Assembly (NCBI GenBank): GCA_023145215.1
Contig: JAGLED010000007.1
Location: 1-64,000, forward strand
Length of the DNA: 64,000 nucleotides
Direction: 5' to 3'
Source of the DNA: Rhodospirillales bacterium
Lineage (GTDB): Bacteria; Pseudomonadota; Alphaproteobacteria; Rhodospirillales; Casp-alpha2
Shown here: positions 41,320 to 64,000 of the stretch, one piece after another
Layout: every line of letters starts with the position of its first letter
How positions within the stretch are numbered: the stretch's first letter is position 1
The notes under the pieces: generated by a model
Databases searched by the model: none
Told to the model about the DNA's origin: nothing
The model's input: the letters and a program-made list of their open reading frames with translations, nothing else
Position numbers and translations under genes: made by a program

Positions 41320-42687
41320 TCACACCGCGTCGGCGCGTTCAAGGTCGATCAGATGAATGAACGAACCGACTACACGCCGATCAGCAAGACCGGTCTCACC
41401 CAGTTCCCGGCCGCTCGCATCCTCGGCACGAAACAGCGGCAGGCCCGGGCCTTCCTCGATCACCGTCGCAAAATGGAATTCGTGGCCGCGAAACCGGGTG
41501 CGCGCGCCGCCGAGCGGACCGGCCTTCGCCAGGGTGATCCGGCGATAGCCGATGTGCAAACGCCTTGTCGCGAAACTCGTCTCCAGCGGCAACAGGCCCG
41601 CCATCGGATGACGGCGCCCGTCAGCATCCGTCAATCCCTGACCGAGCACCATGTAGCCGCCGCATTCGCCAAAGATCGGCTTCGATGCATCCGCGGCCTG
41701 CTGCAGCCCATCCATGAAATCCCAGTTCGCCGAAATCCTGCCGGCGTGCAGTTCCGGATAGCCGCCCGGCAGATAGATCGCGTCCGCCTTCGGATCCGGC
41801 GCTTCATTGGTCAGCGGCGAAAAGAAACTGAGTTCCGATCCGGCGGCGCGCCAGCCTTCCAGCAGGGCCGGGTAGGCGAACGCGAACGCATCGTCGCGGG
41901 CAATGGCGATTTTTTGACCGAGCGGCGGAATCAACAGCGGCGCATCCGATTTCGGTCGCACCGGCCAGGGCCGCATCGCGCGACGGAGGGCCGCGATATC
42001 GAGGTGTTCGCCGACCCAGTCGGCGGCCTTGTCGAGAAACGTCTCCAGATTTCGATGCTCACGGGCCTGCACGAGGCCCAGGTGGCGCGACGGCAGCTCC
42101 AGGGCGTCATTACGGGGTAACGCGCCGAAAATCTCCAGATCGGGCGCGATCTTCTTCATTGCCTCTTTCAGGATTTCGACATGCCGGGCGCCGCCGACCC
42201 GATTGAAGATCACCCCCGCAACATCGACGCCCGGCCTGTGTTCCGCAAATCCCTTCGCCAGCACGGCGGCGCTCGCCGCCTGTTTCGATGCATCGATCAC
42301 CAGCACCACCGGCCAACCGGTAATTTCCGCGAGCGCGGCGGTCGAACCGTCGTGCCTGTCATCCGAGTGCACGGCGCCGTCGAACAGCCCCATGACCCCT
42401 TCGCAGATGATATCGTCGGCCTTTGCCGCCATGTCGCCTGCCAGCTCGGCCAGCGTTTCTTCGCGCATTGCCCAGGGATCGAGATTGCGGCACGGCCGGT
42501 TGGTCGCGGCGGTATGAAAAGCGGGATCGATATAATCGGGGCCGGTCTTGGCGGAGATCACGTCGATCCCCGTTTCACGCAAGTGACGAAGCAAACCGAG
42601 GGTAATCAGGGTCTTGCCGGCACCCGATGAGGGCGCGGCAATGATCAGCCCGCTGCCGGGAACGCCCGATAGGCGGCGCGCCGTCAC
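41320..42687 (-). CDS. cobB: Cobyrinate/hydrogenobyrinate a,c-diamide synthase CobB/CbiA
   Basis: A 455-residue ATP- and glutamine-dependent amidase that amidates carboxylates a and c of the corrin ring. The P-loop is SSGAGKT at about residues 20-26, and the glutamine amidotransferase domain carries the nucleophile in [10 protein letters not shown] near residue 340 and a final FIHLI histidine. The start is GTG at 42687, which overlaps the sco stop as GTGA; no in-frame ATG precedes the P-loop without running into sco. CobB (late) and CbiA (early) cannot be told apart by eye. Confidence 0.93.
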
Positions 42688-43400
42688 AGAAGCTGTCCGA
42701 TCCTCTCGGCCATCGCCTTCGGGTCTGTTCCGTGCGAAAAATGCGTCACCAGTTTCCCGTCCGGCCCCATCAGGTAGATGATCGAGGTGTGATCGACGAG
42801 GTAATCCTGCGGGTCCTCGCCCGCCGGATCGTTCTTGCGGTAATAGACCCGGTATTCGCGCGCGACCGCCTTGATCTGCTCTTCGGTCCCCGTCAGACCG
42901 ACCGTACGCGGATGGAAGAACGAAACGTACTCGGCCAGATGATCGGGCGTATCCCGCGCCGGGTCGACGGAAATAAAGACAGGCACGATTTTCTCGGCCT
43001 TCTCTTCGCCCAGCATATCCAGCACTGCCGCCATGTCGCTCAGCGCGGTCGGACAAACATCGGGACAGTAGGTGTAACCGAAGAACACCATCATGTACTT
43101 ACCGAGGAAGTCTTTTTCGGTGACCGTCTTGCCCTTTTGGTTGACGAGCGTGAACGGTCCGCCGACGCTGGGGCCGCTGTCGGACGACGAACTGCCGGCG
43201 GACTCTGAGCCGCGTTTCGCAAAATATTCGGTGCCGGCGAGTACGATCACGAAGGCAACGATCACGATCCCGACAAGCAGGACCAGCAACTTGCCACCGG
43301 ACGATTTCTTCTTTTTCGGCGCCGCCGCTTCGCCCTCGACCGGGTCGAGCACGTTCGGCGTCTCCGGCGTCTCGTCCGCGTCTTTCTTGTCGTCAGACAT
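42684..43400 (-). CDS. Sco1/SenC-type copper chaperone
   Basis: A 238-residue membrane-anchored thioredoxin-fold protein for copper delivery to cytochrome oxidase. A lysine-rich cytoplasmic start is followed by one helix (about 37-58). The copper ligands are CPDVC (near residues 110-114) and the distal His in LVDHTSI. The ATG at 43400 (MSDDKKDADE) is used in place of a TTG upstream. Its end overlaps the GTG start of cobB by four bases, an odd pairing of copper and corrin genes. Confidence 0.9.
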   Translation of the reverse strand: MSDDKKDADETPETPNVLDPVEGEAAAPKKKKSSGGKLLVLLVGIVIVAFVIVLAGTEYFAKRGSESAGSSSSDSGPSVGGPFTLVNQKGKTVTEKDFLGKYMMVFFGYTYCPDVCPTALSDMAAVLDMLGEEKAEKIVPVFISVDPARDTPDHLAEYVSFFHPRTVGLTGTEEQIKAVAREYRVYYRKNDPAGEDPQDYLVDHTSIIYLMGPDGKLVTHFSHGTDPKAMAERIGQLL

Positions 43401-43517
43401 TTCCCATCCAATCGCTTTGATCGCGCCCGCCAATCATACGAGGATGCGGCGTTTCATCAAGCCCGCTAACGCTTTCCGGGCGTTGGCGCGGCGCCCCGAT
43501 AGGCCTAAACTCCGCCG

Positions 43518-44627
43518 ATGACTTCGCAATCACCGGCACGCAAACCCGATGGCGAACTACGCCGCGGCTGGACCACCGGCACCTGCGCCGCCGCGGGGGC
43601 CGCGGCCGCGTTCAGGGCGCTCCTGACCGGGGAAACCCAACGCACCGTGACGGTCCGTCTGCCCAAGGGGGAGGCGCCGACGTTCGAGCTAAATTGCTGC
43701 GAAAAGACCTCCGACGGCTGGCGCGCCGGGGTGATCAAGGACGCGGGCGACGATCCCGACGTGACCCACGGCGCGGAAATCATTTCATCAGTCAGAATAC
43801 TCAATGACGATGACGGCATCCGGTTCAAAGCCGGTGACGGCGTCGGCACGGTCACGTTACCCGGTCTGCCTGTACCCGTGGGCGAGCCGGCGATCAACCC
43901 GGGGCCCCGCGTCATTATTTCGGATGCCCTGCAAGCCGTCGCCGACGAACTGGACGCGCCTTGCAATGTTGAAGTCACCGTCTCGATCCCGGGTGGCGAA
44001 AAGATCGCGGAAAAGACCATGAACCCCCGGCTCGGTATCAAGGGCGGGTTGAGCGTGCTCGGCACGACCGGGATCGTCATTCCGTTCTCGTGCGCTTCCT
44101 GGATCAACTCCATCCACCGGGGGATCGACGTCGCCAGGCTACAAGGCATCGAACACCTGATCGCCGCCACCGGATCCACATCGGAAGCGTCCGCCATGCG
44201 CGAACATCCTGAACTCCCCGAACAGGCCTTCATCGACATGGGCGATTTCGCGGGCGGACTGCTGAAATACCTGCGCCGCCACCCGGCCCCCCGCCTGACA
44301 TTGGTCGGCGGCGTCGCCAAGCTCGCCAAGTTGGCGCAGGGCCATCTTGATTTGCACTCCAAACGCTCGTCCGTCGATATGGAGAAACTCGCCGACGTCG
44401 CCGCCCATTTCGGCGCGGATAACGCACTCATGTCCAAAATCCGCTCCGCCAACACGGCGATGGAAGCGTTCGAGCATTGCCGGGACGCCGATATTTCGCT
44501 GGCCGACGCGATCGCGCGACAGGCCCGGGAAACGGCGATGGCATCCCTCGCCGGCGAGACCGAGGTCGATGTCATCGTCTACGACAGAACCGGCAATCGG
44601 GTCGGCACGAGTGACCATGACCGATAA
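43518..44627 (+). CDS. cbiD: Cobalt-precorrin-5B C1-methyltransferase CbiD
   Basis: A 369-residue CbiD that methylates C-1 of the corrin ring. The family opening RRGWTTGTCAAAGAAAAF is at residues 15-32. The segments DAGDDPDVTHGAEI and LGTTGIVIPFS are also typical. CbiD is a marker of the early-cobalt (anaerobic) route but also occurs in some late-cobalt clusters that lack CobF. The 117-base region between it and the divergent sco gene should hold its promoter. It overlaps cobK by 11 bases. Confidence 0.95.
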   Translation: MTSQSPARKPDGELRRGWTTGTCAAAGAAAAFRALLTGETQRTVTVRLPKGEAPTFELNCCEKTSDGWRAGVIKDAGDDPDVTHGAEIISSVRILNDDDGIRFKAGDGVGTVTLPGLPVPVGEPAINPGPRVIISDALQAVADELDAPCNVEVTVSIPGGEKIAEKTMNPRLGIKGGLSVLGTTGIVIPFSCASWINSIHRGIDVARLQGIEHLIAATGSTSEASAMREHPELPEQAFIDMGDFAGGLLKYLRRHPAPRLTLVGGVAKLAKLAQGHLDLHSKRSSVDMEKLADVAAHFGADNALMSKIRSANTAMEAFEHCRDADISLADAIARQARETAMASLAGETEVDVIVYDRTGNRVGTSDHDR

Positions 44628-45369
44628 GACCGTCGTCATATTGGGGGGCACCGCCGACGCGCGAAAGCTCGCCGATAGTCTCGTCGAGAGCCGCGGCGAT
44701 CGCATCCGCGTCATCACGTCGCTGGCCGGCCGGACGAAGAATCCGAAACTGCCGAAAGGCGAGATCCGCGACGGCGGCTTCGGGGGCGCGGAGGGACTGG
44801 CGACGTATCTAAGTGAGACCGGCTGCGATCTTTTGATCGATGCGACGCATCCGTATGCCGCGCAGATCAGCCGTCACGCCGCCGAAGCGGCGAAAGCCGC
44901 GAACGTACCACGCCTGTTATTAAACCGCCCGGCCTGGGAAGAGCAGGATGGTGACAACTGGACGCACGTCCCGGATATCCAATCGGCCGCCGACCGAATC
45001 ACCAGGTACTCGCAGGCCTGCCTGATCACCACCGGCGTCAATGACCTCGCCGCATTCGCCGGGATCGTGACGACCAAAATGTTCGTCCGTCTGATCGAAA
45101 AACCTGAAAATCTGCCGCTCGACCACGCCGAAATCGTGATCGGGTCGCCACCCTACAAAACCGGCGACGAGATCGCGTTGATGCAGATGCTCGGTATCGA
45201 TCTGATGATCACGAAGAACGCCGGCGGAACTGGAACCTACGCGAAGATCGAGGCCGCACGTACGCTCGGGATCGACGTGATCATGATCGACCGTCCGGCC
45301 CTACCCGAGAGCGATACTGTCGATAGCGTCGAAGGCGCACTAGCGCGCACCCTGGAAAATCTGGATTAA
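44617..45369 (+). CDS. cobK: Precorrin-6A reductase CobK/CbiJ
   Basis: A 250-residue NAD(P)H-dependent reductase of the macrocycle. The opening is VVILGGTADARKLA, followed by DATHPYAAQIS and the C-terminal TKNAGGTGTYAKIEAA. The ATG at 44617 lies inside the end of cbiD (11-base overlap), fixing the start. Cobalt-free or cobalt-bound substrate use (CobK or CbiJ) is not decided by sequence. Its TAA stop overlaps the convergent Fe-S gene at TTAA. Confidence 0.94.
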   Translation: MTDKTVVILGGTADARKLADSLVESRGDRIRVITSLAGRTKNPKLPKGEIRDGGFGGAEGLATYLSETGCDLLIDATHPYAAQISRHAAEAAKAANVPRLLLNRPAWEEQDGDNWTHVPDIQSAADRITRYSQACLITTGVNDLAAFAGIVTTKMFVRLIEKPENLPLDHAEIVIGSPPYKTGDEIALMQMLGIDLMITKNAGGTGTYAKIEAARTLGIDVIMIDRPALPESDTVDSVEGALARTLENLD

Positions 45370-46706
45370 TCGGCGACGTTCGGGTGCCGCTCGCGGTCCC
45401 GCGGCAGGAACTGCTCCGACAGCATGAATGTCATCACCGCGTCACGCGCCTCGTCGAGGCTCATGCCATGTTCGGCGATGGTATCGGCGGCATCGGCGAC
45501 GATGGCGTCGACGTCCTGCATCCCCTTGAGGCGCTTGAACAGATCGTCACGGCGGATCCCCATACTCTCGCCGATCAGATCCATGTAGTTGACGATCTCG
45601 AACGGCCATGCAGCTTCATGGGAAGAGATTTCCCGGTGATCCGCGTGAAATACGCTACAAAGCGCCGTCACCCCGGCTGCCTCGGCCTTCTTAAGCACCC
45701 GGGCGATAGACGATTCACGATATTCCGGCATGGTTTCCAATGCCGACATCTGGTAGCCGGCCTGATCGATCTCCAAATCCACAAACTCGAGGCCCGGAAT
45801 CGCTTTCAAGAGCTTCTGCACGGCCTCGGTCACGCCGCGCGATCCGGGAAATTCAAACAGTGCGACTTTCTTGTTCACGGGCCGCATCATCAGACGCTTC
45901 ATGTCGTCGAAGCGCCGGGCCATGTAGACCGGGAACATGTTGATGTCGAACAACGGCTCCCCCGGCGGCGACACGGACGGCAAGGCGATCTCGCCGAACT
46001 GGATCTGGCAGGTCGGGCACCACGCCAGCACTTCCGACGCGCCGGTTTCGTGGAATCGCTGGATCGTCGTCAAAGCCTGACGGCCCGCGTTCTCGGTATC
46101 GCCGGGCCGGAACTGCAATACGCCACAACAATTGCCGGGCCCGCCGTAAACTTCATAAGTCGCGCCCAGCTTGTCGAGCACGTCGAGGCACATCAGCCCG
46201 ATATGCGGCGTCTTCAAAAGATTGCAGCCGGTGTAGAAAACGAGGTCGGGGGCTTGGGCGGGTTTGGCCCGTTTCGCCGGCGGGTTGAGCCTGGCCAACA
46301 CATCCACCGGCATCTGCAACCGGGACAGCATCCGCACCCCCTGGCTCATGGCCTGGAATTTCTCCCGCCCTTCGGCCTTCCGCATCTCCGGCGCATTCAG
46401 TTCGTTCAGGCGCCGGCGCGCCATCGTCAGCATGAAACGCGGATTGATCCCTTCCGGACACGCGTCGATACAACGCCCGGTGCCGCAGCATTTGCGCGCC
46501 CAGATCTCGGCTTCCGGCGTGTGCGTTTCACCCTTGAGAATATCGATGACACCGCCCGCGAGTGCCTCCGGCGCGCTGTCGCCGATGCCGGCGATGGCCG
46601 GCGTCGGGCAAACCTCGGCGCACTTCCCACAGACCGTACACGCATCGACGATACCGTCGATGCGGCGGTCCAGATCGGCGATGAAGCTCTCGGCGGTTGC
46701 GCGCAT
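45366..46706 (-). CDS. HdrC/HdrB-like iron-sulfur protein in the corrin cluster
   Basis: A 446-residue soluble Fe-S protein. C23, C26, C29 and C33 form a standard [4Fe-4S] motif (CTVCGKCAEVCP). A second set reads CCGTGRCIDACP (C73, C74, C79, C83), with an altered order. The first CCG domain has C161, then C193-C194, then C230 and C233. That fits CX31-39CCX35-36CXXC, the special cluster motif of heterodisulfide reductase HdrB. The second CCG domain is degenerate (only C350). GGGAGAG precedes the ATG. It follows cobM by 90 bases on the same strand. I infer a redox role in corrin synthesis or cobalt reduction; function unproven. Confidence 0.8.
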   Translation of the reverse strand: MRATAESFIADLDRRIDGIVDACTVCGKCAEVCPTPAIAGIGDSAPEALAGGVIDILKGETHTPEAEIWARKCCGTGRCIDACPEGINPRFMLTMARRRLNELNAPEMRKAEGREKFQAMSQGVRMLSRLQMPVDVLARLNPPAKRAKPAQAPDLVFYTGCNLLKTPHIGLMCLDVLDKLGATYEVYGGPGNCCGVLQFRPGDTENAGRQALTTIQRFHETGASEVLAWCPTCQIQFGEIALPSVSPPGEPLFDINMFPVYMARRFDDMKRLMMRPVNKKVALFEFPGSRGVTEAVQKLLKAIPGLEFVDLEIDQAGYQMSALETMPEYRESSIARVLKKAEAAGVTALCSVFHADHREISSHEAAWPFEIVNYMDLIGESMGIRRDDLFKRLKGMQDVDAIVADAADTIAEHGMSLDEARDAVMTFMLSEQFLPRDRERHPNVAD

Positions 46707-46796: not shown

Positions 46797-47558
46797 TCAA
46801 CCGGCCTTGGGCCTGAGCACGTGATGGTGGTCTTCGGCGTAGAGCCGCGAGTCCTCGAACGTTTCGGGACCGAGTACGCGCCCCACCATGATTAACGCCG
46901 TCCGCGTGATCCCCGCCGCTTTCACCTTATCGCGAATATCGCCGAGCGTGCCTTCGATGAATAGTTCGTCGGGCCAGCTCACCCGATAGGCGACGACGAC
47001 GGGGCAGTCGGCACCGTAATAAGGGATAAGCGTCCGTTGCACGTGCGCCAGATTGTTGACGGACAGGTGGATCGCCAGCGTCGCACCGCTTTTTCCCAGC
47101 GTCTCCAGGTCCTCACCGTCGGGCATGGACGAAGACCGCACGGCGGTTCTGGTCAGGATCACCGTCTGCGCAACGTCCGGCAGCGTCAGCTCTTTCTTCA
47201 ACGCCGCCGACGCCGCGGCATAGGCCGACACCCCCGGTGTCACGTCGTAATCGATACCGAGGTCGTCGAGGCGCCGCATCTGTTCGGCGATCGCACCGTA
47301 AAGTGACGGATCGCCGGAATGCACACGGGCGACATCTTTCCCGGCGGCGTGCGCCTTGCGTATTTCCTCGATGATCTGCTCCAGATGCATCGGTGCCGTG
47401 TCCATGACCAGCGCGTCCGTCGGCGCCTCGGCGATGATCGCCTCAGGCACCAGCGAGCCTGCATAGAGCACCACGGGGGCGGACTGAATAAGCTTCAGCC
47501 CGCGCACCGTGATCAGGTCCGCAGCGCCCGGACCGGCACCGATGAAATGAACGGTCAT
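46797..47558 (-). CDS. cobM: Precorrin-4 / cobalt-precorrin-4 C11-methyltransferase
   Basis: A 253-residue SAM-dependent tetrapyrrole methylase. It starts VHFIGAGPGAADLITVRG and has the RVHSGDPSLYGAI motif and the VTPGVSAYAAASAAL segment of CobM/CbiF. It methylates C-11 of the ring-contracted intermediate. Its start overlaps the stop of the upstream LPPGL protein by four bases (ATGA), so the two are translationally coupled. Confidence 0.95.
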   Translation of the reverse strand: MTVHFIGAGPGAADLITVRGLKLIQSAPVVLYAGSLVPEAIIAEAPTDALVMDTAPMHLEQIIEEIRKAHAAGKDVARVHSGDPSLYGAIAEQMRRLDDLGIDYDVTPGVSAYAAASAALKKELTLPDVAQTVILTRTAVRSSSMPDGEDLETLGKSGATLAIHLSVNNLAHVQRTLIPYYGADCPVVVAYRVSWPDELFIEGTLGDIRDKVKAAGITRTALIMVGRVLGPETFEDSRLYAEDHHHVLRPKAG

Positions 47559-48067: not shown

Positions 48068-49870
48068 CTAACCGCCGGCATGCTTGGCCGCATAGCCACG
48101 CGGCGTGTAGACCCATTCCCGCATCCCCCGTCGGATATGCCGGGTCGCGCTGGAACCGATCAGCACCAGCGTCAACATGTCCACCATATCAACTTCCAAC
48201 GCCGAAAGTGTGATTACCTGCACATTTTCCCCCTCCCGACCAAGATTTCTGGCCAATATAACCGGCACATCCCCCGGCCTGTGGTTGAGGAGAATATCCT
48301 TTGCAGCTGCGAGTTGCGTTCTCCTGCGTTTCGACACCGGATTGTAAAACGCGACCGTGAAGTCGCCCTTGGCGGCGGCTTCGATGCGCTGTTCGATCAC
48401 GTCCCACGGCGTCAACAAATCCGAAAGCGAGATCAGCGCAAAATCATGGCCCAGCGGCGCGCCGATCCTGGCCGCCGCAGCCTGCACCGCGGAGATCCCC
48501 GGACTGACCCGAATATCAATACGGTTGAAGGCGGGATCGTCATCCCGGTCGAGCACTTCGAACGCCAGCGCGGCCATCGCGTAGATCCCCGCGTCACCCG
48601 AACTGACAAGCGCCACGTCACGGCCCTCGGCGGCAAGCTCGATGGAACGCCTGACCCGCGCCTCTTCTTCGGACAGTTCCGACATATGCCGTTGTTTGTC
48701 CGATATCGCATCGTCAAGAAGATCGAGATAAAGACCGTAACCGACGACATCGGTGGCCCCTGTCAGCCAGCTGCTGACTTCGGGTGTGCGCCACGACGCC
48801 TGGCCGGGCCCAATGCCGACGATGGAAAGACGTCCCCGCGCCCGTCCAAGGCGTTCCGGATCCACCGGTCGGGCGGCGCGGGCAATGGCGCAGGTCGCGC
48901 GTGCCGACTTCCTTTTCGGGACAATCAGTTCACCGTCAGCACCGACAGCGGCAAGCGCGGCCCCTTCCGCAACACCATGACACCCGACTTCGGCGAAGAC
49001 GATGTCGGACGGATTCTTAAGACGCGGCGTTTCCCGCTCTAAACGGGCCGCATCGAAGAACCGTACCGGCACCTCCAGATCTTCGGCCAACGACAGCACG
49101 GCGGGTTCGTCGGATTTGAGATCGATGGAAACGACACAGGCGACGGCTTCCGCTACCAGCCCGGCGTTATCGAGCGTTTCGCGCACCAGTTCAGCCACCT
49201 CGGAAGGATCGCAATCCCGCTCGCAACCGATGCCGATGCACAGAATCTGCGGATGGATCACGAACGTCCCGTCATCGGACACCCCGTCGGTGACGCGGAT
49301 CACTCTGTCCGCATCGACTGAAACGTTAGGCGCGTTCAACCATTCGGGGGCAGGCAGATGCGCATCGCGGTCAATGCGCACCGGATCGCCGTTCAGCATC
49401 GCCGCCATGAGAGGTTTCGCCGCCGACGCGTCCTTGATGCGCCAGCCGGCCGGCGGATCGTCGAGCGCAAACCCGAGCGAAAGGTCACCCGCCGTCGTCA
49501 CCGCCGCGTCGATACCGAGCACCGCTGCGAGGACGCGCGCGATCCCGTTCGCGCCCTTGTGCCCACCCAACACCGGAACCACCGCGGATCCGTCTTCGGC
49601 AACCGCGATCACCGGCGGCTCATCGTTCTTGTCGGCCAGCAGCGGCGCCACGGCACGCATCAGAATGCCTGCGGCACAAATCCCGATCACCGGCATACCG
49701 TCTCCGAACAGGACCGCGATATGCTGAAGCGTGTCGGCAAAGGACACGTCAGGCGCGTTTGTCCGCCCTTGCAGGCCGTGAACGTCCCCACCGGTCGCGG
49801 CCGCCAGTCTGCGCGCCAGGGCTTCGCCGTTCCGGTTAAGAACGACATAGACGGGGTGTTTCGTGCTCAT
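48068..49870 (-). CDS. cobJ: CbiG-CobJ fusion: cobalt-precorrin-5A hydrolase / C17-methyltransferase
   Basis: A 600-residue bifunctional enzyme. Residues 1-335 are a full CbiG (N-terminal, mid and CobE-like C-terminal parts; VIGICAAGILMRA, GCERDCDPSE and EVGCHGVAEGAAL are visible). Residues 347-600 are the CobJ/CbiH methylase (SIVGIGPGQ, SSGDAGIYAMA, SPGISAVQAAAARIGAPLGHDF). CobJ/CbiH methylates C-17 with ring contraction; CbiG then opens the lactone and removes acetaldehyde. A CbiG unit points to early-cobalt chemistry. No ferredoxin domain is attached. The start overlaps cobI (ATGA). Confidence 0.92.
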   Translation of the reverse strand: MSTKHPVYVVLNRNGEALARRLAAATGGDVHGLQGRTNAPDVSFADTLQHIAVLFGDGMPVIGICAAGILMRAVAPLLADKNDEPPVIAVAEDGSAVVPVLGGHKGANGIARVLAAVLGIDAAVTTAGDLSLGFALDDPPAGWRIKDASAAKPLMAAMLNGDPVRIDRDAHLPAPEWLNAPNVSVDADRVIRVTDGVSDDGTFVIHPQILCIGIGCERDCDPSEVAELVRETLDNAGLVAEAVACVVSIDLKSDEPAVLSLAEDLEVPVRFFDAARLERETPRLKNPSDIVFAEVGCHGVAEGAALAAVGADGELIVPKRKSARATCAIARAARPVDPERLGRARGRLSIVGIGPGQASWRTPEVSSWLTGATDVVGYGLYLDLLDDAISDKQRHMSELSEEEARVRRSIELAAEGRDVALVSSGDAGIYAMAALAFEVLDRDDDPAFNRIDIRVSPGISAVQAAAARIGAPLGHDFALISLSDLLTPWDVIEQRIEAAAKGDFTVAFYNPVSKRRRTQLAAAKDILLNHRPGDVPVILARNLGREGENVQVITLSALEVDMVDMLTLVLIGSSATRHIRRGMREWVYTPRGYAAKHAGG

Positions 49871-54818: not shown

Positions 54819-55847
54819 ATGCGGGTGTCGTCAACTTCCGCCATGGTCACGTTAGGTTTCGCCGGTGCCGCTGCACCCTTCGATCCGCTGATACTGCTCA
54901 TCATCGCGATGGGCATAGAAGCCTATATCGGCGAAGCCCGGTTCATCTTCAGCCGCGTCAAGCACCCGGTGGCGATCCTCGGCGCGATGATCGGTTTCTT
55001 CGACGACAAGCTGAACCGGCCCAAACGCTCGCAGGTCGACCGCGCCGTCAGGGGGACGTTCGTCGTCATCTTCATGGTGTCGTTTGCCGCCGCCGTCGGC
55101 ATCGGTGTGATGTGGCTGACGCTTCACTTCACGTGGGGCTGGGTGCTGGAATGCGCGTTGCTGGTGACCCTTCTCGCGGGCCGTGGCCTCTACGATGCCG
55201 TTGCGCGTGTCGCCAAGGGGCTGGAAATCGGCGGCCTGGAGGGTGGGCGCGAAGCGGTCAGGCACATCGTCGGCCGCGATCCGAAGAGCCTCGATGCCCC
55301 CGGCATTGCGCGCGCCGCCGTCGAGAGCCTGGCGGAGAACTTCTCCGACGCGGTCGCGGCGCCCGTCTTCTGGTACGTGCTGCTCGGCTTCCCGGGGATC
55401 CTCGTTTATAAAACCGTCAACACCATGGACAGCATGATCGGCCACAAAACGCCCCTGCATCAGGCGTTCGGCTTCACCGCCGCCAGGCTGGACGACGCCT
55501 TGAACGCGATCCCGGCAAGACTGTCGGCGTTGATTTTCGCCGCGGCCGCATTGTTCGTGCCCACCGCGAACCCATCCGCCGCGATCAAGACGGCGATGCG
55601 CGACGCGAAAAAACATCGCTCTTTCAACGCCGGTTGGCCGGAAGCGGCAATGGCGGGGGCGCTCGGCATCGCACTGGCGGGACCGCGCACCTATGGGGGT
55701 GAGCGGGTCGACGACCACTGGATGGGAGATGGCCGCGCGCGGCTCAGTCACAAGGACATCCAGCGCGCGCTATATCTGTACGGGGTCGCCTGCCTGATCA
55801 CGGGAGGCATCGTCGGCGCGATTGCGGCGCTCAGACTACACCTCTGA
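54819..55847 (+). CDS. cobD: Adenosylcobinamide-phosphate synthase CobD/CbiB
   Basis: A 342-residue inner-membrane protein with four to five helices that attaches the aminopropanol (phosphate) arm to adenosylcobyrate. Family segments: KHPVAILGAMIGFFDDKLNR, RHIVGRDPKSLD, ESLAENFSDAVAAPVFWY, KTVNTMDSMIGHK and HRSFNAGWPEAAMAGALG. Start is ATG at 54819 or 54843; neither has a strong ribosome-binding site. It is the only rightward gene in this stretch and ends with no gap against convergent cobQ. Confidence 0.95.
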   Translation: MRVSSTSAMVTLGFAGAAAPFDPLILLIIAMGIEAYIGEARFIFSRVKHPVAILGAMIGFFDDKLNRPKRSQVDRAVRGTFVVIFMVSFAAAVGIGVMWLTLHFTWGWVLECALLVTLLAGRGLYDAVARVAKGLEIGGLEGGREAVRHIVGRDPKSLDAPGIARAAVESLAENFSDAVAAPVFWYVLLGFPGILVYKTVNTMDSMIGHKTPLHQAFGFTAARLDDALNAIPARLSALIFAAAALFVPTANPSAAIKTAMRDAKKHRSFNAGWPEAAMAGALGIALAGPRTYGGERVDDHWMGDGRARLSHKDIQRALYLYGVACLITGGIVGAIAALRLHL

Positions 55848-57332
55848 TCAGCGGGCCAGCGCCAGCAGCCCGTCCAAGTCCATATGCTTTTCCAGATGCG
55901 CCGCAAGGCCGTCGAGCGCCGCGTCCACCCGCCCCGCGTAATCGATCTCGGACGCACGTCCGTCGCGCAACCTGTTCAGGAACGCATGACGGAAACCGTC
56001 GGCGGCGAAAATTCCGTGCAGGTAGCCCGCCATCACCCGGCCGTCCTTAGAAACGGCGCCGTCGGTGCGCCCACCCTCAAGCGTCAGCCAGGGGCGCGCC
56101 GTGTCGGGCCCGGTGGTGCGGCCCATGTGCATTTCGTAACCCCGCACGTCCGCACCCGTCAGCATCTCTTTCCCCGTCACCTCGACCAGCGACTTGTCGC
56201 CGCCGATGACGGTTTCGACATCGAGCAGACCCAGGCCTTCAAGCGTTTCCGGCGCCCCCTCGATCCCGTCCGGATCGGCGAGCGTACGACCCAGAATCTG
56301 ATAGCCGCCGCATAAGCCGACGACGAGCCCGCCGCGCCGGTGATGCGCCGCGATGTCGGTATCCCAGCCCGCGTCCCTGAGCGCCTTCAGATCGCCGAGC
56401 GTCGCCTTGGAGCCGGCCAGAAGGACCACGTCCGCGTCACCCGGCAGGGCATCCCCCATCTCGATGATGTCGACACGGACATCGGGTTCGGCGGCGAGCG
56501 GGTCCAAGTCGTCGAAGTTGGAAATCCGGGGCAGACGCGGCACGGCGATGACGATGTCTTTTTTATCCCCATCGATCTCCCGCTTGTCCAACGCCATCGC
56601 GTCTTCCTTCGGCAAAGCGCGGGCGTCGGCGAAATAGGGGACGAGGCCGAATGACTTAAGCCCTGTCTTTTCGGTGATGATCTTCATGCCGTCGTCGAAC
56701 AGCGACGCATCGCCCCGGAACTTGTTGATAACGAAACCGGCCAGGTGCTTTCTATCAGCGTCCGAAATCACGGTGTACGTGCCGACGATCTGCGCGATGA
56801 CCCCACCCCGGTCGATGTCACCGACGAGGATCACCGGAATATTCGCGGCTTCGGCGAAGCCCATGTTGGCGATGTCAGCGTCGCGCAGGTTCACTTCCGC
56901 CGGGCTGCCCGCGCCCTCAACCAAGACAAGGTCGGCACCGTCGCCGTTGATATCGAAGCTTTCCAGCACGTCTTTCAGCAGCTTCGGCTTCATCTGATAA
57001 TAGTCGCGCGCCTTGGCATTCCCCGCGACCCGGCCCTGCACCACCACCTGCGCACCTATATCGGACTGCGGCTTCAGCAGCACCGGGTTCATGTGCACGG
57101 TCAAAGGCTGGCGCGCCGCCAGCGCCTGCAGCGCCTGAGCGCGGCCGATCTCGCCCCCGTCCGACGTGACGGCGGCGTTATTCGACATGTTCTGAGGCTT
57201 GAAGGGCCGAACCGCCATGCCCCGGTTCGCATATGCGCGGCAAAGGCCCGCAACCAGCAAGGACTTGCCGACGTCGGAGCCGGTGCCCTGAAACATCAGG
57301 GCCGGCGTGCGGACATCCGTCGCCTTACTCAA
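55848..57332 (-). CDS. cobQ: Cobyric acid synthase
   Basis: A 494-residue glutamine- and ATP-dependent amidase that amidates the b, d, e and g carboxylates. The N-terminal [13 protein letters not shown]-loop, [16 protein letters not shown], the amidotransferase motif [10 protein letters not shown] and the C-terminal YLHGIF histidine are all present. The start is TTG at 57332, overlapping the SYLF gene stop (TTGA). A shorter form from the internal ATG at 57296 would begin right at the P-loop and looks too short. Confidence 0.94.
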
Positions 57333-58033
57333 TACTTGGCGAGGACGGCAGCCAGCCTGTCGGCGCGGGCCATCCGGTTGGCGGGATCGGTCACGATCTC
57401 GCGGGGTGTCTTACCCTGACCATAGACCGCTTCGTTGATGTCCTGACGCCGCGCCATCACCGCACCCTCGACACTCGCGCCCGCGAACGCCCCGACCTTG
57501 GAGTTGGCGAACGCCAGCACATCGGCGCCGAGATTGGTGGTCGTCGACGCTTCGGCACCGAGGCCGTAGAACCCCGCCGTCACGCCGGCGTCCGCGCCGA
57601 TCTTGGCCTGGTCCTTGAGAATCGCTTCGAGCGCGCCCTTGTTGCGGATCACGAGGATCACTTCCGTGCTCTGCGCGCCGAACTGAATGCCGAAGCTGCC
57701 GGCACCCAGCGTGTAGAAAGCGGGTGCGCTCCACCCGCCATCAGGGGTGCGCGCCATCAATAGACCGTTGCCCCCCTCGCCACCGACGAAGAACCCCGCC
57801 TTGAGGATGCTCGGGAAGATCGCGATGGCGACTGAATCCGGCAGATACTTGGAAAACCGCTGCAGGCCCTTCAAAGTCTGGAAACGCTCGACCGTGGCGA
57901 CCGCACTGTCGACCATGTGTTCGGCCTTGAGAACGGGCGACTCTTCGTACTCGGTGCATCCGGCGACGCTGCCGAGCGCCACCATGGCGGCGGCGGTGGA
58001 CAGGAAACGGCGGCGCGAAAGTCGGGCAAGCAT
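57329..58033 (-). CDS. SYLF/Ysc84-domain lipoprotein
   Basis: A 234-residue protein. The N terminus [16 protein letters not shown] has a twin-arginine-like RRR-F-L motif and a lipobox ending in C26 (SVAGC). The mature part is a SYLF domain (about 70-230: [34 protein letters not shown]), a lipid-binding fold. The ATG at 58033 has GAGGAG seven bases upstream; longer readings from a TTG at 58048 or ATG at 58039 fit it less well. It lies between cobO (11 bases) and cobQ (overlap). It has no known role in corrin synthesis. Confidence 0.85.
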
Positions 58034-58044
58034 GCGCATTCTCC

Positions 58045-58671
58045 TCAAAATTCGATACCGACCTGCGCTTTGACGCCGGAACGGAACGGGTGTTTGACCT
58101 GCGTCATTTCCGTGACCAGATCGGCGATCTCGATCAATTCGTCTTTGGCGTTCCGGCCCGTCACCGCGACATGCAGCAGTTCGGGCTTGTTCTGCAGCGT
58201 TTCGATCACTTCATCGAGCGGCAGATTTTCATAGCGCAGCACGATATTCAGTTCATCCAGGATGACCATCTTGTACGATGGATCGTTAATCATTTCTTTC
58301 GCCGCCTCCCATGCCTGTCTGGCGGCGGAGATATCGCGCTCGCGGTCCTGGGTTTCCCATGAAAACCCTTCGCCCATCGCCTTCATCACGCAGAGATCGG
58401 GAAAGTGTTCGAGCACCTTGCGCTCACCGGTTTCCCATTTGCCCTTCACGAACTGAACGAGACCGACCTTCATGCCGTTGCCGATGGCACGAACCGCAAG
58501 GCCCATTGCTGCCGTCGACTTTCCCTTGCCCTTGCCGGTGTGGATGATGATCAGGCCCTTCTCGATCGTCTTGGTGGCGAGAATCTTGTCGCGCGCGGCT
58601 TTTTTCTTCGCCATCTTCTCGGCGTGGCGCGCGTTCAGTTCTTCTTCGGTCATATTGTCTTTATCCGTCAT
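58045..58671 (-). CDS. cobO: Cob(I)yrinic acid a,c-diamide adenosyltransferase CobO
   Basis: A 208-residue CobO/BtuR/CobA-type enzyme that transfers the adenosyl group from ATP to Co(I). The P-loop GKGKGKST is at 46-53; other markers are GLVQFVKGKWETGERK and the ILDELNIVLRY segment. The ATG at 58671 has GGGAGGGACGG upstream and is chosen over a GTG at 58692. The gene is 30 bases after cobN. Confidence 0.95.
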   Translation of the reverse strand: MTDKDNMTEEELNARHAEKMAKKKAARDKILATKTIEKGLIIIHTGKGKGKSTAAMGLAVRAIGNGMKVGLVQFVKGKWETGERKVLEHFPDLCVMKAMGEGFSWETQDRERDISAARQAWEAAKEMINDPSYKMVILDELNIVLRYENLPLDEVIETLQNKPELLHVAVTGRNAKDELIEIADLVTEMTQVKHPFRSGVKAQVGIEF

Positions 58672-58701
58672 CGTTCCGTCCCTCCCCGGCACGCTATCAT
58701 A

Positions 58702-61700
58702 CTATACCGCTTCCGCCCGGCCCAGACGCTGCAAGACATCGCGCGTCGAATTCAAGCGCGGTGTCCAGAGACCGCGATCCTGCGCCTCGATCAGGCGCTG
58801 GGCAATATCGCGTAGCGCATCCGGATTGGCGTCTTCCAGAAAGCCCCGCACATCGTCGTCGTCCAGATACGCCTGGAACACGAGATCGAAGTGATGATCC
58901 TTGACCGCCCCCGTCGTCGCAGCGAACGCAAACATGTAATCGACCGTCGCCGCCATCTCGAACGCGCCTTTGTAGCCGTGGCGTTTGACCCCCTCGATCC
59001 ACTTCGGATTGACGACCCGGGCACGGACCACGCGCGCGATCTCGTCTTCCAGCGGCCGGACGACGGGGCGTTCAGGTCTTGAATGATCGTTGTGATAAAC
59101 CGCCGGGCGTTCACCCCGGTATTCGTTGACGGCCGCCGTCATGCCGCCTTCGAACTGGTAATAATCATCCGAATCCAGCAGGTCGTGTTCGCGGTTGTCC
59201 TGGTTATGGACGACCGCCTGCACGCGCTTGAGCCTGTCGACGAACAGGTTGTGCTCCGCCGCCCCCTCCGAGCCACCGCCGTACGCATACCCGCCCCATG
59301 CGACGTAGGCATTGGCCAGGTCCGATTCGGTCTGCCAGCCCTTCTCGTCGATCAGCGCCTGCAGGCCCGCGCCATAAGCGCCGGGCTTCGAGCCGAAGAC
59401 GCGGTAACCGGCACGCCGCTGAGCGTCTTTTTGATCGACCCCTTTATTCACCAAGCGTTCGGTTTCAGCCCGGACACGCGACGCAATCGGATTCATTTCC
59501 TCCGGTTCGTCGAGATCGGCAACGGCGCGCACCGCGCTGTCGAACAGGTCGATCAGCGCCGGAAACGCGTCCCTGAAGAACCCGGAAATCCTGAGCGTTA
59601 CATCGACGCGCGGCCGGTCGAGGATATCAAGCGGCAACACTTCGAACCCGACGACGCGTCTCGATGCGCCGTCCCATGTCGGGCGCACGCCCATCAACGC
59701 CAACGCCTGTGCGATATCGTCGCCGCCCGTGCGCATGTTTGACGTGCCCCAGGCCGACAACGCCATCACCGTCGGCCATTCACCGTGACCCTGCATATAG
59801 CGTTCGATCAACAATGATGCCGAGCGCCACCCGAGCGTCGACGCCGCCGGTGTCGGCACGGTGCGGGTGTCGACGGAATAGAAATTGCGGCCGGTCGGCA
59901 AGACATCGGGCCGCCCCCGCGTCGGCGCGCCGGAAGGCCCGGGATCCACGAACCTGCCGTCGAGTGCGGTGAGCATGCCGTTGATTTCAGCATCGCCCGA
60001 TGCCGCGACGCGGGGACGCAAGTCTTCTTCGAGCCACTTCATCACCGCCGCCGTCCGCGTTCGCTTCTGGTTGACGGCGAGGTCCCAGCTCACGTGCGCG
60101 TGGGCAAGCAACTCCACACGCTCGACCGTATCGCCCGCTGTCCGCCACGGGTCGTCGCTGATCGCGGCAAGCACCGGTGGTCGCTTGCCGGTCCACTCAG
60201 CCGCCATGTCGCAGTCGAGGGGATCGAAATCCAACCCGAAGTCGGCGGCGATAGCCCGGTGAAGGGATGCGTCCGCACCCTCGCCCGCACCGCGCGGCAC
60301 ACGTACCAACGCCACCAGCAGATCGGTGAGCAAGCGCCCGCGCGGGCTTTCACCGAACACGTGAAGGCCGTCCCTGATCTGCAGTTCTTTCAATTCGCAC
60401 AAATAACCGTCGAGCTTGGCGAGCGCGTCGTCTTCGGATTCGTCGACGGCGATGCCGATATCCTCGTCCAGTCCGGTCGCGCGGCAGAGGGTCAGGATCT
60501 CTTCCGTCAAAACCCGGATACGCCTCGGATCGACACCGGCGGCCTCGTAATATTCATCGACGAGTTGTTCCAGGTCCTTCAGGGGGCCATAGCTTTCCGC
60601 GCGTGTCAGCGGTGGCGTCAGATGATCGATGATGACCGCGCTCGTGCGGCGTTTGGCCTGCGTGCCCTCGCCCGGATCATTGACAATGAACGGATAAATG
60701 TGCGGCATCGCCCCCAACGCCGCTTCCGGAAAGCAGTCTTCGGAAAGGGCCAAGGCCTTGCCGGGCAGCCATTCCAGGTTGCCATGCTTGCCCATGTGGC
60801 AGACGGCGTCGGCGCGAAAGCCGCGTTCCAACCACGCATAGAACGCAAGATAACCGTGCGGCGGTATCAGCGCCGGGTCGTGGTAGCTCTGAACCGGGTC
60901 GATGTTGTAGCCGCGCGCCGGTTGAAGGCCGATCACCACATTGCCGCATCGATAAGCCGAGATCGCAAAGGTGCCGCAATCCACATCGCCTTCTCTATAG
61001 AAAGGATCCGTCTCCGGTGCGCCCCAGCGTTCCAGCACCTGTTCGCGGACGTTCGCGGGCAGCGCACCGAACCAGATCTGGTAGTCGGCAAGCGAGAGCG
61101 ACTCCGTCACCGTTCGACTCGCGAGATTCTTGAAGTCATTGGTCGGGCCTTTTTTAAGGCGGTCGATCAACGCCGCGCCGTCGGCGGGCGCGTCCGTGAC
61201 CCTGTAGCCCGCACCCTCAAGCGCCTTCAACACACGAACAGTCCCCGCCGGCGTGTCCAGGCCGACACCGTTCCCGAGCCGGGCGTCCTTGTTCGGATAA
61301 TTGGCGAGCACGAGGGCGACGCGGCGCTCGTTCGCCGGGGTATTCCGCAGCTTCGCCCAGTTGGCCGCTAACCGCGCAACGAAGTCGAGCCGGTCCGGCA
61401 CCGGCTCGTAGGTGACGATATCGCTTTCCGTCGCCTCGTCGCGGCGCGCCCTTCCCTTGAACGACACGGCGCGGGTAAAGATGCGGCCGTCGACTTCTGG
61501 GAGCGCCACGTTCATAGCGATGTCGCGGGCGGAAAGGCCACGCGTACCGCTTTCCCAGCCCTCACGATTGCCGCCCGAGAAGACGACCTGCAACACCGGA
61601 CAGCCGCTTTTATCGAGCGGCCCGGACGTAAAATCCTTGCCCGGCGCGGACACCGCGAATCCGGTCGCGTTCAACACCACGTCCGGAGCAGCATCTTCAT

Positions 61701-62469
61701 AGAGCGCAGTGATGGTGTCGGCGGACACCGGATCCTTGAGGCTTTGGGCGAAGACCGGCAGCGGATTGAGCCCCGCGGCGTCAAGCGCCGCGATCATCCG
61801 GTCGACGGCGGCGAGGTTCCCGGCCTGCACCAGGGCACGATAAAACACCAGCGAGGCCACCGGGCGGCCCTGTTCCCATTGCCGCCGCACGTCATTCATC
61901 GACGGCGCCTCGATCCCGGGCCAGTAAATCCCGGCACGCAGCAACGTCGCTGGCTCGCGCCAGTCCACGTCCCTGCCCGTCAGCGCCGCCGCATATAACA
62001 GAAGATTGCGGCTGTTGGCCGGTCCGCCATGCACGCCGTATTGCCAGAGTCGGTGCTGCGCCTCCGCATCCAAAGTCGAGAACCCGGCGAGTTCCGGGTC
62101 CGGCTGGTCGTCGCCCGGTAAAACGGCAAGAGCGATCCCCGAAGACCGGCATGTCTCAGCGATCTGTTCGATCCCGTACGACCAGTAGCCGTAACCGCCC
62201 AATATCCGGATCACCACCAGTTTGGCGTGGCGCACGATCTCGTCGGCGTAAAGATCGACCGACATGTTATGGCCGAGTTGCATCAGATTCGCGAGACGAA
62301 GCGTCGGCACCTCGTAACCTGCGTCGATGAGATCGCGCCGGGCATCGGCAAGCAGGGCCAGTTCGGTATCGGCGGCGGAGAGATACACCACCTCACCCGG
62401 TGTCTGCCCGAGGTCGACGGCTTCTTCGCCGTCGGTGATGGCACCCGGTTGTGCGGCTAGAAGATGCAT
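58702..62469 (-). CDS. cobN: Cobaltochelatase subunit CobN
   Basis: A 1255-residue large subunit of the ATP-dependent late cobalt chelatase, related to ChlH/BchH and acting with CobS and CobT on hydrogenobyrinate a,c-diamide. Length fits the roughly 1275-residue reference. Family markers include LRIL GGYGYWSYG near the N terminus, AVCHMGKHGNLEWLPGK mid-way and GEWPTVMALSAWGTSNMRTGGDDIAQ in the C-terminal half. It is preceded by cobW, the usual pair. CobS and CobT are not in the window. An early-insertion CbiX lies nearby in the same cluster. Confidence 0.95.
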   Translation of the reverse strand: MHLLAAQPGAITDGEEAVDLGQTPGEVVYLSAADTELALLADARRDLIDAGYEVPTLRLANLMQLGHNMSVDLYADEIVRHAKLVVIRILGGYGYWSYGIEQIAETCRSSGIALAVLPGDDQPDPELAGFSTLDAEAQHRLWQYGVHGGPANSRNLLLYAAALTGRDVDWREPATLLRAGIYWPGIEAPSMNDVRRQWEQGRPVASLVFYRALVQAGNLAAVDRMIAALDAAGLNPLPVFAQSLKDPVSADTITALYEDAAPDVVLNATGFAVSAPGKDFTSGPLDKSGCPVLQVVFSGGNREGWESGTRGLSARDIAMNVALPEVDGRIFTRAVSFKGRARRDEATESDIVTYEPVPDRLDFVARLAANWAKLRNTPANERRVALVLANYPNKDARLGNGVGLDTPAGTVRVLKALEGAGYRVTDAPADGAALIDRLKKGPTNDFKNLASRTVTESLSLADYQIWFGALPANVREQVLERWGAPETDPFYREGDVDCGTFAISAYRCGNVVIGLQPARGYNIDPVQSYHDPALIPPHGYLAFYAWLERGFRADAVCHMGKHGNLEWLPGKALALSEDCFPEAALGAMPHIYPFIVNDPGEGTQAKRRTSAVIIDHLTPPLTRAESYGPLKDLEQLVDEYYEAAGVDPRRIRVLTEEILTLCRATGLDEDIGIAVDESEDDALAKLDGYLCELKELQIRDGLHVFGESPRGRLLTDLLVALVRVPRGAGEGADASLHRAIAADFGLDFDPLDCDMAAEWTGKRPPVLAAISDDPWRTAGDTVERVELLAHAHVSWDLAVNQKRTRTAAVMKWLEEDLRPRVAASGDAEINGMLTALDGRFVDPGPSGAPTRGRPDVLPTGRNFYSVDTRTVPTPAASTLGWRSASLLIERYMQGHGEWPTVMALSAWGTSNMRTGGDDIAQALALMGVRPTWDGASRRVVGFEVLPLDILDRPRVDVTLRISGFFRDAFPALIDLFDSAVRAVADLDEPEEMNPIASRVRAETERLVNKGVDQKDAQRRAGYRVFGSKPGAYGAGLQALIDEKGWQTESDLANAYVAWGGYAYGGGSEGAAEHNLFVDRLKRVQAVVHNQDNREHDLLDSDDYYQFEGGMTAAVNEYRGERPAVYHNDHSRPERPVVRPLEDEIARVVRARVVNPKWIEGVKRHGYKGAFEMAATVDYMFAFAATTGAVKDHHFDLVFQAYLDDDDVRGFLEDANPDALRDIAQRLIEAQDRGLWTPRLNSTRDVLQRLGRAEAV

Positions 62470-62521
62470 TCGCGTTCCGTCCGTGGCCCGCGCCGGGGGT
62501 CCGGCCGCGGGTAACTAACGA

Positions 62522-63550
62522 TCAGGCCGCTCCCTTGAGTTCGGAAGCGATCGCCTCTCTATTCAATCCCGTCAGTCCGATCACGACGAGTTCGCTTCGG
62601 CGTGTCTCGCCGTCCTGCCAGGGGCGGTCGAAGTACCGTTCAACCCTGGGGCCGACCGCCTGAATGACATGGCGCATCGGCTTGCCCGGCACGTTGACGA
62701 AGCCCTTGATGCGAAGAATGTCGTGTGCGGTCGTCGCCGCCTTGATGCGGGCTTCGAGCGCGCCCGGATCGTCGATGTCGCCGAGCGGCACCTGGAAGCT
62801 CTCGAAATCGTCATGATCGTGATCGTCGTCTTCATCATGGTGCGACGGGCGCTGATCGAGATCGTCCTCGACCGCCGCCGACATCGCCAGCAACACGCCG
62901 AGATCGATATTCCCCTTCACCGTCTCGACGACCTTCACGCCGGGGCGAATTTCCTTGCCGAGTACAGCTCTTACGACGGATTTGTCGTCGTTCGTCATCA
63001 GATCAGATTTGTTCAGCAGCACGAGATCGGCGCAGAGGAGTTGATCCTCGAACACTTCCTCCAGCGGCGAATGATGATCGAGATTGTCGTCGGCTTCACG
63101 CGCCGCCTGAACCTTATCCGGGTCGTCCGCGAAACGGCCGTCGCGAACGGCGGGCGCGTCGACAACGGCGACGACGCCGTCCACAGTGACCCGCGAGCGG
63201 ACTTCCGGCCAGTTAAAAGCCTTCACCAGCGGTTTCGGCAAAGCCAGCCCCGAGGTTTCGATGACGATGTGATCGGGCGGCGTTTCGCGGCGCAGCAGCT
63301 TTTCCATGGTCGGCAGGAAATCGTCGGCGACGGTGCAGCAGATGCAGCCGTTGGCAAGTTCCATCACGTCGTCTTCGGCGCAGCCTTCGAAGCCGCAGCC
63401 GTTGATCACTTCACGATCGACACCGATGTCGCCGAACTCGTTGATGATCAGGGCGATCCGCTTGCCGTTCGCATTCGACAGGATATGCCGGATCAGCGTC
63501 GTCTTGCCGGCGCCCAGAAATCCGGTGATCACAGTCGCGGGAATCTTCAT
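62522..63550 (-). CDS. cobW: CobW-type GTPase metallochaperone
   Basis: A 342-residue G3E GTPase thought to deliver cobalt to CobN. Walker A is GFLGAGKTT (10-18), the metal-binding CICC motif is at C69-C72, and NKSDL serves as the base-recognition motif. A His/Asp-rich stretch (HHDEDDDHDHDD) lies near residue 240 and a CobW_C domain follows (about 250-340). The start overlaps the stop of cobP (ATGA); cobN follows after 52 bases. Confidence 0.94.
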   Translation of the reverse strand: MKIPATVITGFLGAGKTTLIRHILSNANGKRIALIINEFGDIGVDREVINGCGFEGCAEDDVMELANGCICCTVADDFLPTMEKLLRRETPPDHIVIETSGLALPKPLVKAFNWPEVRSRVTVDGVVAVVDAPAVRDGRFADDPDKVQAAREADDNLDHHSPLEEVFEDQLLCADLVLLNKSDLMTNDDKSVVRAVLGKEIRPGVKVVETVKGNIDLGVLLAMSAAVEDDLDQRPSHHDEDDDHDHDDFESFQVPLGDIDDPGALEARIKAATTAHDILRIKGFVNVPGKPMRHVIQAVGPRVERYFDRPWQDGETRRSELVVIGLTGLNREAIASELKGAA

Positions 63551-64000
63551 GTCGTTACGTCCTTCATTGTCATCGGCAATCCGGCGGCAACGAACACCAC
63601 CCGGTCGGCAATCTTCGCAATCCGCTGGTGGGTATTGCCTGCATGATCGCGGAATTGTCGCGCCATTGCGTTCTCCGGCACAATCCCGAGACCGACCTCG
63701 TTGGACACGAACACGACGCGCACGTCAAGGCTTGGCAATGCGGCCGTCAGCATCGACACCTCGCGCTCGATGTCGCGTTCCGCCATCATCAGGTTCGTGA
63801 CCCAGAGCGTCAGGCAATCGACCAAGACCGCCTTGCCGCGGCAGTTCCTGGAGGTCAACGCGCCGACCAGATCGGTCGGTGCCTCGATGGTCTGCCATTT
63901 ATCGCCGCGCCGCTGGCGGTGTTTTTCGATTCGCACCGTCATTTCGCTGTCCCAGGCTTCGGCAGTGGCGATATAGATGCCGCCGCCCTCGGCTTCGACA
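63547..64000 (-). CDS. cobP: Adenosylcobinamide kinase/guanylyltransferase CobP (5' end outside window)
   Basis: The C-terminal 150 residues of a CobP/CobU enzyme that phosphorylates adenosylcobinamide and adds GMP. Visible segments are GGIYIATAEAWDSEM, RIEKHRQRRGDKW, the LVDCLTLWVTNL motif and FVSNEVGLGIVPENA. The open frame runs through the right edge, and the N-terminal P-loop (GGARSGKS type) is outside. An internal ATG at 63942 is not the start. It is coupled to cobW by an ATGA overlap. Confidence 0.93.
   Translation of the reverse strand, partial: VEAEGGGIYIATAEAWDSEMTVRIEKHRQRRGDKWQTIEAPTDLVGALTSRNCRGKAVLVDCLTLWVTNLMMAERDIEREVSMLTAALPSLDVRVVFVSNEVGLGIVPENAMARQFRDHAGNTHQRIAKIADRVVFVAAGLPMTMKDVTT

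Follow-up and report, generated by a model that had tools for sequence, protein, structure and literature searches.

Coexistence of a long-form CbiX and a CobN cobaltochelatase in a cobalamin gene cluster of a Rhodospirillales bacterium and across its order

The cobaltochelatase CbiX of Bacillus megaterium is described, in the accessible part of the report, as having a pair of histidines in the N-terminal lobe, an MxCxxC motif, and a histidine tail (PMC7689651). For Paracoccus CbiX, the available sections of Bali et al. name His127 and His187 as important (PMC4063343). In Sphingomonas haloaromaticamans, CobN, CobW, and CobO occur with B12 transport genes, and the genes for the corrin ring are said to be lacking in the excerpt of that study at hand (PMC6970198). 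That chelatases are not exclusive to either the cobalt-early or the cobalt-late route was already stated by Shelton et al. in the accessible portion of their text (PMC6461909). Here we describe a B12 gene cluster of a Rhodospirillales bacterium in which a long form of CbiX lies together with CobN and CobW. The cluster spans from about 41.3 kb to the end of the analyzed stretch, hereafter the window (bases 1-64000 of the 87,209-base contig JAGLED010000007.1; draft genome of 2.30 Mb, 65.8% complete). We report its gene content, gene order, selection, and co-occurrence across genomes, and from these we infer what the two chelatases may take as substrates and whether metal-free corrins may reach CobN in vivo.

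Genes were identified by matches of hidden Markov models against curated Pfam or NCBIfam cut-offs, which the B12 genes of the cluster exceeded (Table 1). The cluster encodes an enzyme for every step by which the cobalt-early route leads from sirohydrochlorin to cobyrinate diamide: CbiX, CbiG, and CbiD are all in the window, together with the shared ring enzymes. CbiG and CobJ form a single 600-aa protein with CbiG_N, CbiG_C, and TP_methylase domains, and we take the C-terminal half of CbiG to be the counterpart of stand-alone CobE. The class I cobaltochelatase is likewise represented in full. CobN is of full length and adjoined by CobW, and the chelatase subunits CobS (624.3 bits) and CobT (831.5 bits) are adjacent on contig C14, all three subunits being over cut-off. 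A preliminary description of this DNA had placed CbiX, CbiG-CobJ, CbiD, CobN, CobW, CobO, CobP, CobQ, and CobB in one cluster; the model matches confirmed this, except that ‘CobB’ is best called CbiA/CobB, as the family does not separate substrates. The same cluster with the same gene order was found in all four genomes of the genus sample (the window's own genome and three congeners at 98-99% completeness). Beyond the window, the contig continues with frames that by eye resemble a phosphatase, the cobalamin synthase CobS, and the dimethylbenzimidazole (DMB) transferase CobT. An Rfam scan of the window, riboswitches included, gave no match at gathering score.

The window CbiX resembles the B. 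megaterium type in having two lobes, the N-lobe histidine pair, the MxCxxC motif, and the histidine-rich tail, and in lying among ring genes, as far as the accessible part of that report allows the comparison (PMC7689651). It differs in clustering with CobN and in belonging to an alphaproteobacterium, and its preference for cobalt is putative. Its 354 residues include His12 and His78 in the N-terminal lobe, an MNCQLC motif from residue 260, and 27 histidines after the motif; no NCBIfam model matched it at cut-off, and the Pfam CbiX domain was found twice. GTDB contigs were scanned with this protein, and the best 80 of 372 loci, 41 of them with full flanks, were kept as related loci. Both N-lobe histidine motifs were detected by pattern in 77 of the 80 related proteins and by eye in the other three, the MxCxxC motif was present in 80/80, and 79/80 had at least 10 histidines after it. 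Among solved structures, the window CbiX has its best relatives in chains of sirohydrochlorin ferrochelatases (presumably Bacillus SirB), so that the metal cannot be read from the fold alone; histidines align there too, and the N-lobe pair is not decisive by itself.

These relatives would also suit a cluster CbiX that makes sirohaem, B12 synthesis then being of the ordinary late-cobalt kind. Such a role was shown for Paracoccus CbiX and extended to alphaproteobacteria by Bali et al., according to the sections available, and the window CbiX belongs to the same class II family (PMC4063343). The histidine pair of the Paracoccus protein, whose solved chain has 231 residues, is however located in the C-terminal lobe. 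The window CbiX does not share this arrangement: its pair belongs to the N-terminal lobe, and it has the motif and tail of the B. megaterium type. Furthermore, each of the three congeners has another chelatase, shorter in length (248-257 aa) and with the Paracoccus histidine pattern. In G046, the best solved match of this second protein is Paracoccus CbiX, and His127 and His187 of the Paracoccus chain align to histidines. A second copy was not seen in the window's own genome at its 65.8% completeness. Because the congeners have this separate Paracoccus-type chelatase, the cluster CbiX would be free for cobalt. As CobG, CobF, and cob-type CobZ were also not found in the genus (see below), we regard the sirohaem alternative as very unlikely.

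Selection on the two chelatases was assessed as the ratio of nonsynonymous to synonymous substitution rates (dN/dS, Nei-Gojobori method) in the six pairs of genus genomes. Values were 0.042-0.080 for CbiX, placing it with the most strongly constrained cluster genes, and 0.062-0.135 for CobN. Both genes are thus under purifying selection; CobN is not decaying, and the earlier suggestion that one of the chelatases is vestigial finds no support.

The cobalt-late route requires other ring enzymes, namely CobG or CobZ for ring oxidation, and CobF. The preliminary description had found none of the three in the window, and no match over cut-off was detected even in the whole genome (65.8% complete); a stand-alone CobE was not seen in the window either. 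It had held that the pathway would be ordinary late-cobalt if these enzymes lay elsewhere together with CobST and if CbiX did not chelate cobalt; of the genes concerned, CobS and CobT do exist, and CobG, CobF, and cob-type CobZ were not found in the genus. The best CobG-model matches of the three congeners reached 128.9-135.5 bits (cut-off 234.8) and lie in 557-aa frames which we take for sulphite reductases. For CobF, nothing in the genus exceeded the cut-off, and the matches in the three congeners were no more than weak. Each congener does have a CobZ-model match over cut-off (about 562 bits). In a tree of 17 proteins, comprising 13 of the 37 over-cut-off CobZ matches of the order and four annotated TcuA, these grouped with TcuA (support 100/100), and four cob-linked CobZ fell in a clade separate from the TcuA side (support 96/98). 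This CobZ clade is named by gene linkage, the tree being composed of sampled proteins and TcuA, without a characterized CobZ. As to gene context, two of the TcuA references adjoin tricarboxylate transporter genes, the match of G027 sits between genes for flavin mononucleotide oxidoreductases (context typed in G027 only), and a TcuB-like frame follows the match in all three congeners (by eye). G091 and G115 fall in the CobZ clade, with no cob gene found adjoining theirs. The 24 matches outside the tree were counted as not CobZ; most of them exceed 530 bits, as do the proteins on the TcuA side, G067 (426.7 bits, partial) being an exception.

It had further been proposed that the organism may switch, for example with oxygen, between an early and a late route, each of them complete. 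Both chelatases being intact and constrained would suit such a switch, and two ring-gene sets do exist elsewhere in the order, in G107 and G130. In the window's genus, however, the three congeners at 98-99% completeness lack CobG and CobF over cut-off and their CobZ-model matches side with TcuA, so that no late-route ring enzyme was recognized; we consider the switch quite unlikely for the window organism. It should be better sought in the two other genomes. G107 (loci L077 and L092; its cluster matches Insolitispirillum peregrinum DSM 11589, NZ_FTOA01000002.1) combines a mixed CbiX-CobN cluster with a second set of CobH, CobI, CbiG, CobK, and CobZ. In G130, CobF and CobZ belong to the second ring set, and a strong CbiX and another CbiG are encoded elsewhere.

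To place the cluster in its order, 150 genomes including the window's own were analyzed, those absent from the match listings being scored as negative. A CbiX match was called strong below an E-value of 1e-20, a cut placed post hoc in a gap between about 1e-23 and 4e-15. CobN was matched in 130 genomes (126 over cut-off) and strong CbiX in 118; CobH was found in 123, CbiD in 112, and CbiG_N in 114. Over cut-off, CobG occurred in 8, CobF in 7, and CobZ in 37. CobN and strong CbiX were present together in 115/150, and the full mixed set of CobH, CbiX, CobN, CbiD, and CbiG in 102, of which 98 had no CobG, CobF, or clade CobZ (71 if every over-cut-off CobZ match is counted as late). Among the related loci, which include Magnetovibrio, Thalassospira, Terasakiella, Telmatospirillum, Rhodospira, Stappia, Pseudovibrio, and Cohaesibacter, CbiX was followed by CobH in 74/80. 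CobN lay inside the fetched stretch in 15/80 (9/41 with full flanks), and was followed by CobO in 14 of these 15. In the eight single-contig genomes of the order sample, CbiX and CobN were within 10 kb of each other in two, and in the other six the distance was at least hundreds of kb. From these counts and distances, the gene mix is common in the order, and its arrangement in a single cluster is one layout among several. The mixture that the preliminary description had singled out as a hybrid is real, and its gene content is usual rather than exceptional. The accessible part of Shelton et al. contains no breakdown by order and no analysis of gene order or of CobG/CobZ exchange (PMC6461909).

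The same sample bears on whether CbiX is in use. CobH-positive genomes, taken as ring-making (n=123), had a strong CbiX in 116 cases and lacked it in seven. CobG or a CobZ-clade protein was present in 6/7 without strong CbiX, belonging to five genera, as against 6/116 with it (Fisher p = 1.5e-6, uncorrected for kinship); with only the cob-linked CobZ counted, the figure for the former was 4/7 (p = 7e-4). This is the pattern to be expected of a CbiX that is in use and that alternates with CobG/CobZ. Because the absence of CbiX mostly coincides with the presence of CobG or CobZ, CbiX is probably the working early chelatase, and, taken alone, early insertion by CbiX for ring synthesis appears likely to us. 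CobF and CbiD were mutually exclusive, as all 7/7 CobF-positive genomes lacked CbiD. Seven further CobH-positive genomes (G006, G012, G045, G049, G072, G082, and G121) were found with neither; their C1 methylation step is either unaccounted for or lost in assembly.

CobN accompanies ring synthesis almost everywhere, being matched in 122 of the 123 ring makers (119 over cut-off, three partial). It also occurs without CobH in eight genomes. Three of these (G086, G117, and G136), probably fragmentary genomes, have CbiD and were left out of the ring-less group, defined as lacking CobH, CbiD, and CbiG_N. The remaining five (G040, G056, G065, G081, and G108) had no CobF or CobG over cut-off. In G040, G056, G081, and G108 (94-99% complete), CobN is open over its full length and lies in a CobP-CobW-CobN-CobO-CobQ-CbiB block (loci L208-L211) that keeps the order of the window; its dN/dS among the four is about 0.14-0.19 (ratios of rounded values). 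The block is neighbored in G040 by a DMB phosphoribosyltransferase and a BtuC-like permease (below cut-off), and in G108 by a DMB phosphoribosyltransferase, CobS synthase, CobD, and a corrinoid/haem-type ATP-binding cassette ATPase (below cut-off). In keeping CobN, CobW, and CobO without ring genes, the four resemble S. haloaromaticamans, which is of another lineage and for which salvage of metal-free corrins is not proposed in the available excerpt (PMC6970198).

Two readings would deprive CobN of cobalt insertion altogether. It could be a relic that has stayed on by chance from a late route once present. The failure to recognize late ring enzymes in the genus, the suggestion in the accessible text of Shelton et al. 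that some partial pathways are being lost (PMC6461909), and a stop inside the partial CobN match of G065 point in this direction. A relic is improbable, given that CobN has an open frame under constraint both in four genomes of the genus and in four ring-less ones, and is present in nearly every ring maker. Alternatively, CobN might catalyze a different reaction such as metal removal, as its homologue HmuS takes iron from haem; HmuS is described in the sections available as membrane-anchored and encoded in haem operons (PMC12583661), whereas the window CobN reaches double the cut-off of the CobN model and has CobW and CobO as neighbors. We regard metal removal as most improbable.

The window system is like the CobNST-CobW late cobaltochelatase in its full CobN, the adjoining CobW, and the CobS and CobT encoded elsewhere, and unlike it in that the genus has no recognized CobG, CobF, or cob-type CobZ to supply the known substrate. 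The known product of CobN enters the pathway at CobO and CobQ, and for this reason we infer that the block of the ring-less genomes handles imported metal-free corrin. The explanation that we prefer is that the ring is made by the cobalt-early route via CbiX, with CobNST-CobW as a second entry point of cobalt for metal-free corrin; its chances stand close to balance. The long-form CbiX would insert cobalt into sirohydrochlorin, and CobI, CbiG-CobJ, CobM, CbiD, CobK, CobL, CobH, and CbiA would carry the product on to cobyrinate a,c-diamide. CobN with CobST and CobW would insert cobalt into a metal-free corrin (hydrogenobyrinate a,c-diamide or closely related compounds), which could be imported or could spill from the ring enzymes when these run without cobalt. 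CobO, CobQ, CbiB, and CobP would then take on the product of either chelatase. That CobNST-CobW is a salvage chelatase for metal-free corrins from neighbors or from the cell's own ring enzymes is a tentative and somewhat doubtful proposal when judged separately. Of the three readings offered in the preliminary description, a second role for CobN is the best supported, as CobN persists without ring genes; salvage or rescue by CobNST is the leading, though unproved, form of it.

A number of findings weigh against this explanation. Besides the stop in G065, three of the five ring-less genomes have CobZ-model matches over cut-off, the only one placed in the tree (G081) falling on the TcuA side. 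Chelatase-type CobT occurs in 18/20 genomes without CobN (14 over cut-off), so that CobST say little about chelation and may have another role in the order. The tree lacks a characterized CobZ and leaves 24/37 over-cut-off matches unplaced; if every one of the 37 is taken as late, the CbiX comparison weakens to 6/7 versus 34/116 (p = 0.005). In G007 and G092, a strong CbiX match occurs without CobH or CobN, and CbiX is thus not always accompanied by ring genes; these proteins may be of another chelatase type. Their matching frames are short (260 and 299 aa). The seventh ring maker without strong CbiX, G131 (86% complete), has, at the position of CbiX in a mixed cob cluster, a CbiX-like protein that has lost both catalytic histidines. 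This genome has CbiG, CbiD, and CobN, neither CobG nor CobZ reaches the cut-off, and its sole cobalt inserter may be CobN. Metal-free corrin salvage was not described in the open-access literature searched, most subscription papers lying outside that scope. Finally, that almost every ring maker has CobN would suit an essential step no less than an accessory one. Together with the histidines lost in G131, this wide occurrence speaks for late insertion without CobG/CobZ, in which the ring enzymes, including CbiG and CbiD, would act on metal-free precorrins with an unknown oxidant and CobNST would be the main chelatase. G091 and G115 add to this, since they have CbiD, CbiG, and a CobZ-clade protein without strong CbiX, and CbiD and CbiG may accordingly work in late routes. 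Such late insertion leaves unexplained, however, why CbiX is so strongly constrained and why it is absent mostly where CobG or CobZ is present, and the one candidate replacement in the cluster, discussed next, is not conserved; we judge it unlikely.

This candidate, a protein with 4Fe-4S and CCG domains, and other passenger genes of the cluster were omitted from the preliminary description. We considered the protein as a CobG/CobZ substitute and rejected it as a general B12 enzyme, as it is mostly found outside cob clusters. Some match occurs in 88/150 genomes of the order, and a strong one (E at most 4.4e-76) in 15 besides the window's own. Stretches around all 15 strong and two weaker matches were inspected: the gene lies within the cob cluster in all four genus genomes, and the stretches of the other 12 strong and the two weaker ones contained no cluster gene except TPR-like matches. 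Among the 80 related stretches (41 with full flanks), the protein was found in one.

Table 1. Genes of the cobalamin cluster in the window, passenger genes, and the CbiX-like gene of G131
Feature	Position	Strand	Match (cut-off) or remark
CbiA/CobB, (hydrogeno)cobyrinate a,c-diamide synthase	41320..42651, start approximate	-	NF002204 496 bits (254)
Presumed SCO1-like protein	42684-43433	-	no NCBIfam match; recurs in related cob clusters, 9/41 full-flank loci
CbiD, C1 methyltransferase	43518..44627	+	TIGR00312 422.3 bits (200)
CobK/CbiJ, (cobalt-)precorrin-6A reductase	44617..45369	+	NF005968 285 bits (231)
4Fe-4S plus CCG-domain protein, probable passenger	45366..46706	-	PF02754 over cut-off
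CobM/CbiF, C11 methyltransferase	46797..47558	-	TIGR01465 322 bits (260)
Full-length CbiG fused to CobJ/CbiH	48068..49870	-	PF11760, PF01890, PF00590; TIGR01466 303 bits (246)
CobI/CbiL, C20 methyltransferase	49867..50592	-	TIGR01467 227.5 bits (163)
CobL (CbiE-CbiT fusion)	50571..51794	-	TIGR02467, TIGR02469 over cut-off
CobH/CbiC, methylmutase	51791..52414	-	NF006136 299.5 bits (276)
CbiX long form	52433..53497	-	PF01903 twice
TPR protein	53633-54712	-	recurs in related cob clusters, 2/41 full-flank loci
CbiB, adenosylcobinamide-phosphate synthase	54819..55847	+	TIGR00380 184 bits (166)
CobQ, cobyric acid synthase	55848..57332	-	NF001989 623 bits (273)
Ysc84-domain lipoprotein	57329-58048	-	recurs in related cob clusters, 11/41 full-flank loci
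CobO, corrinoid adenosyltransferase	58045..58692	-	NF004637 282.5 bits (185)
CobN, large subunit, class I cobaltochelatase	58702..62469	-	TIGR02257 1689.6 bits (822)
CobW, cobalt metallochaperone GTPase	62522..63550	-	TIGR02475 536.6 bits (332)
CobP/CobU, cut by window end	63547..63999, on contig C50 to ~64158	-	NF004469 179.9 bits (161)
CbiX-like protein of G131	L089:13479-14354	-	MNCxxC motif kept, no catalytic histidines; in mixed cob cluster

Genomes with B12 genes are often labeled ‘aerobic’ or ‘anaerobic’ by their chelatase, and this label fails here, because 115/150 genomes of one order have both. The question raised is why the late chelatase is kept where late ring enzymes go unrecognized. 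Metal-free corrins are possible exchanged nutrients: if the proposed salvage is true, they would be a traded B12 precursor, and the ring-less genomes with CobN would be hydrogenobyrinate salvagers beside the known cobinamide salvagers.

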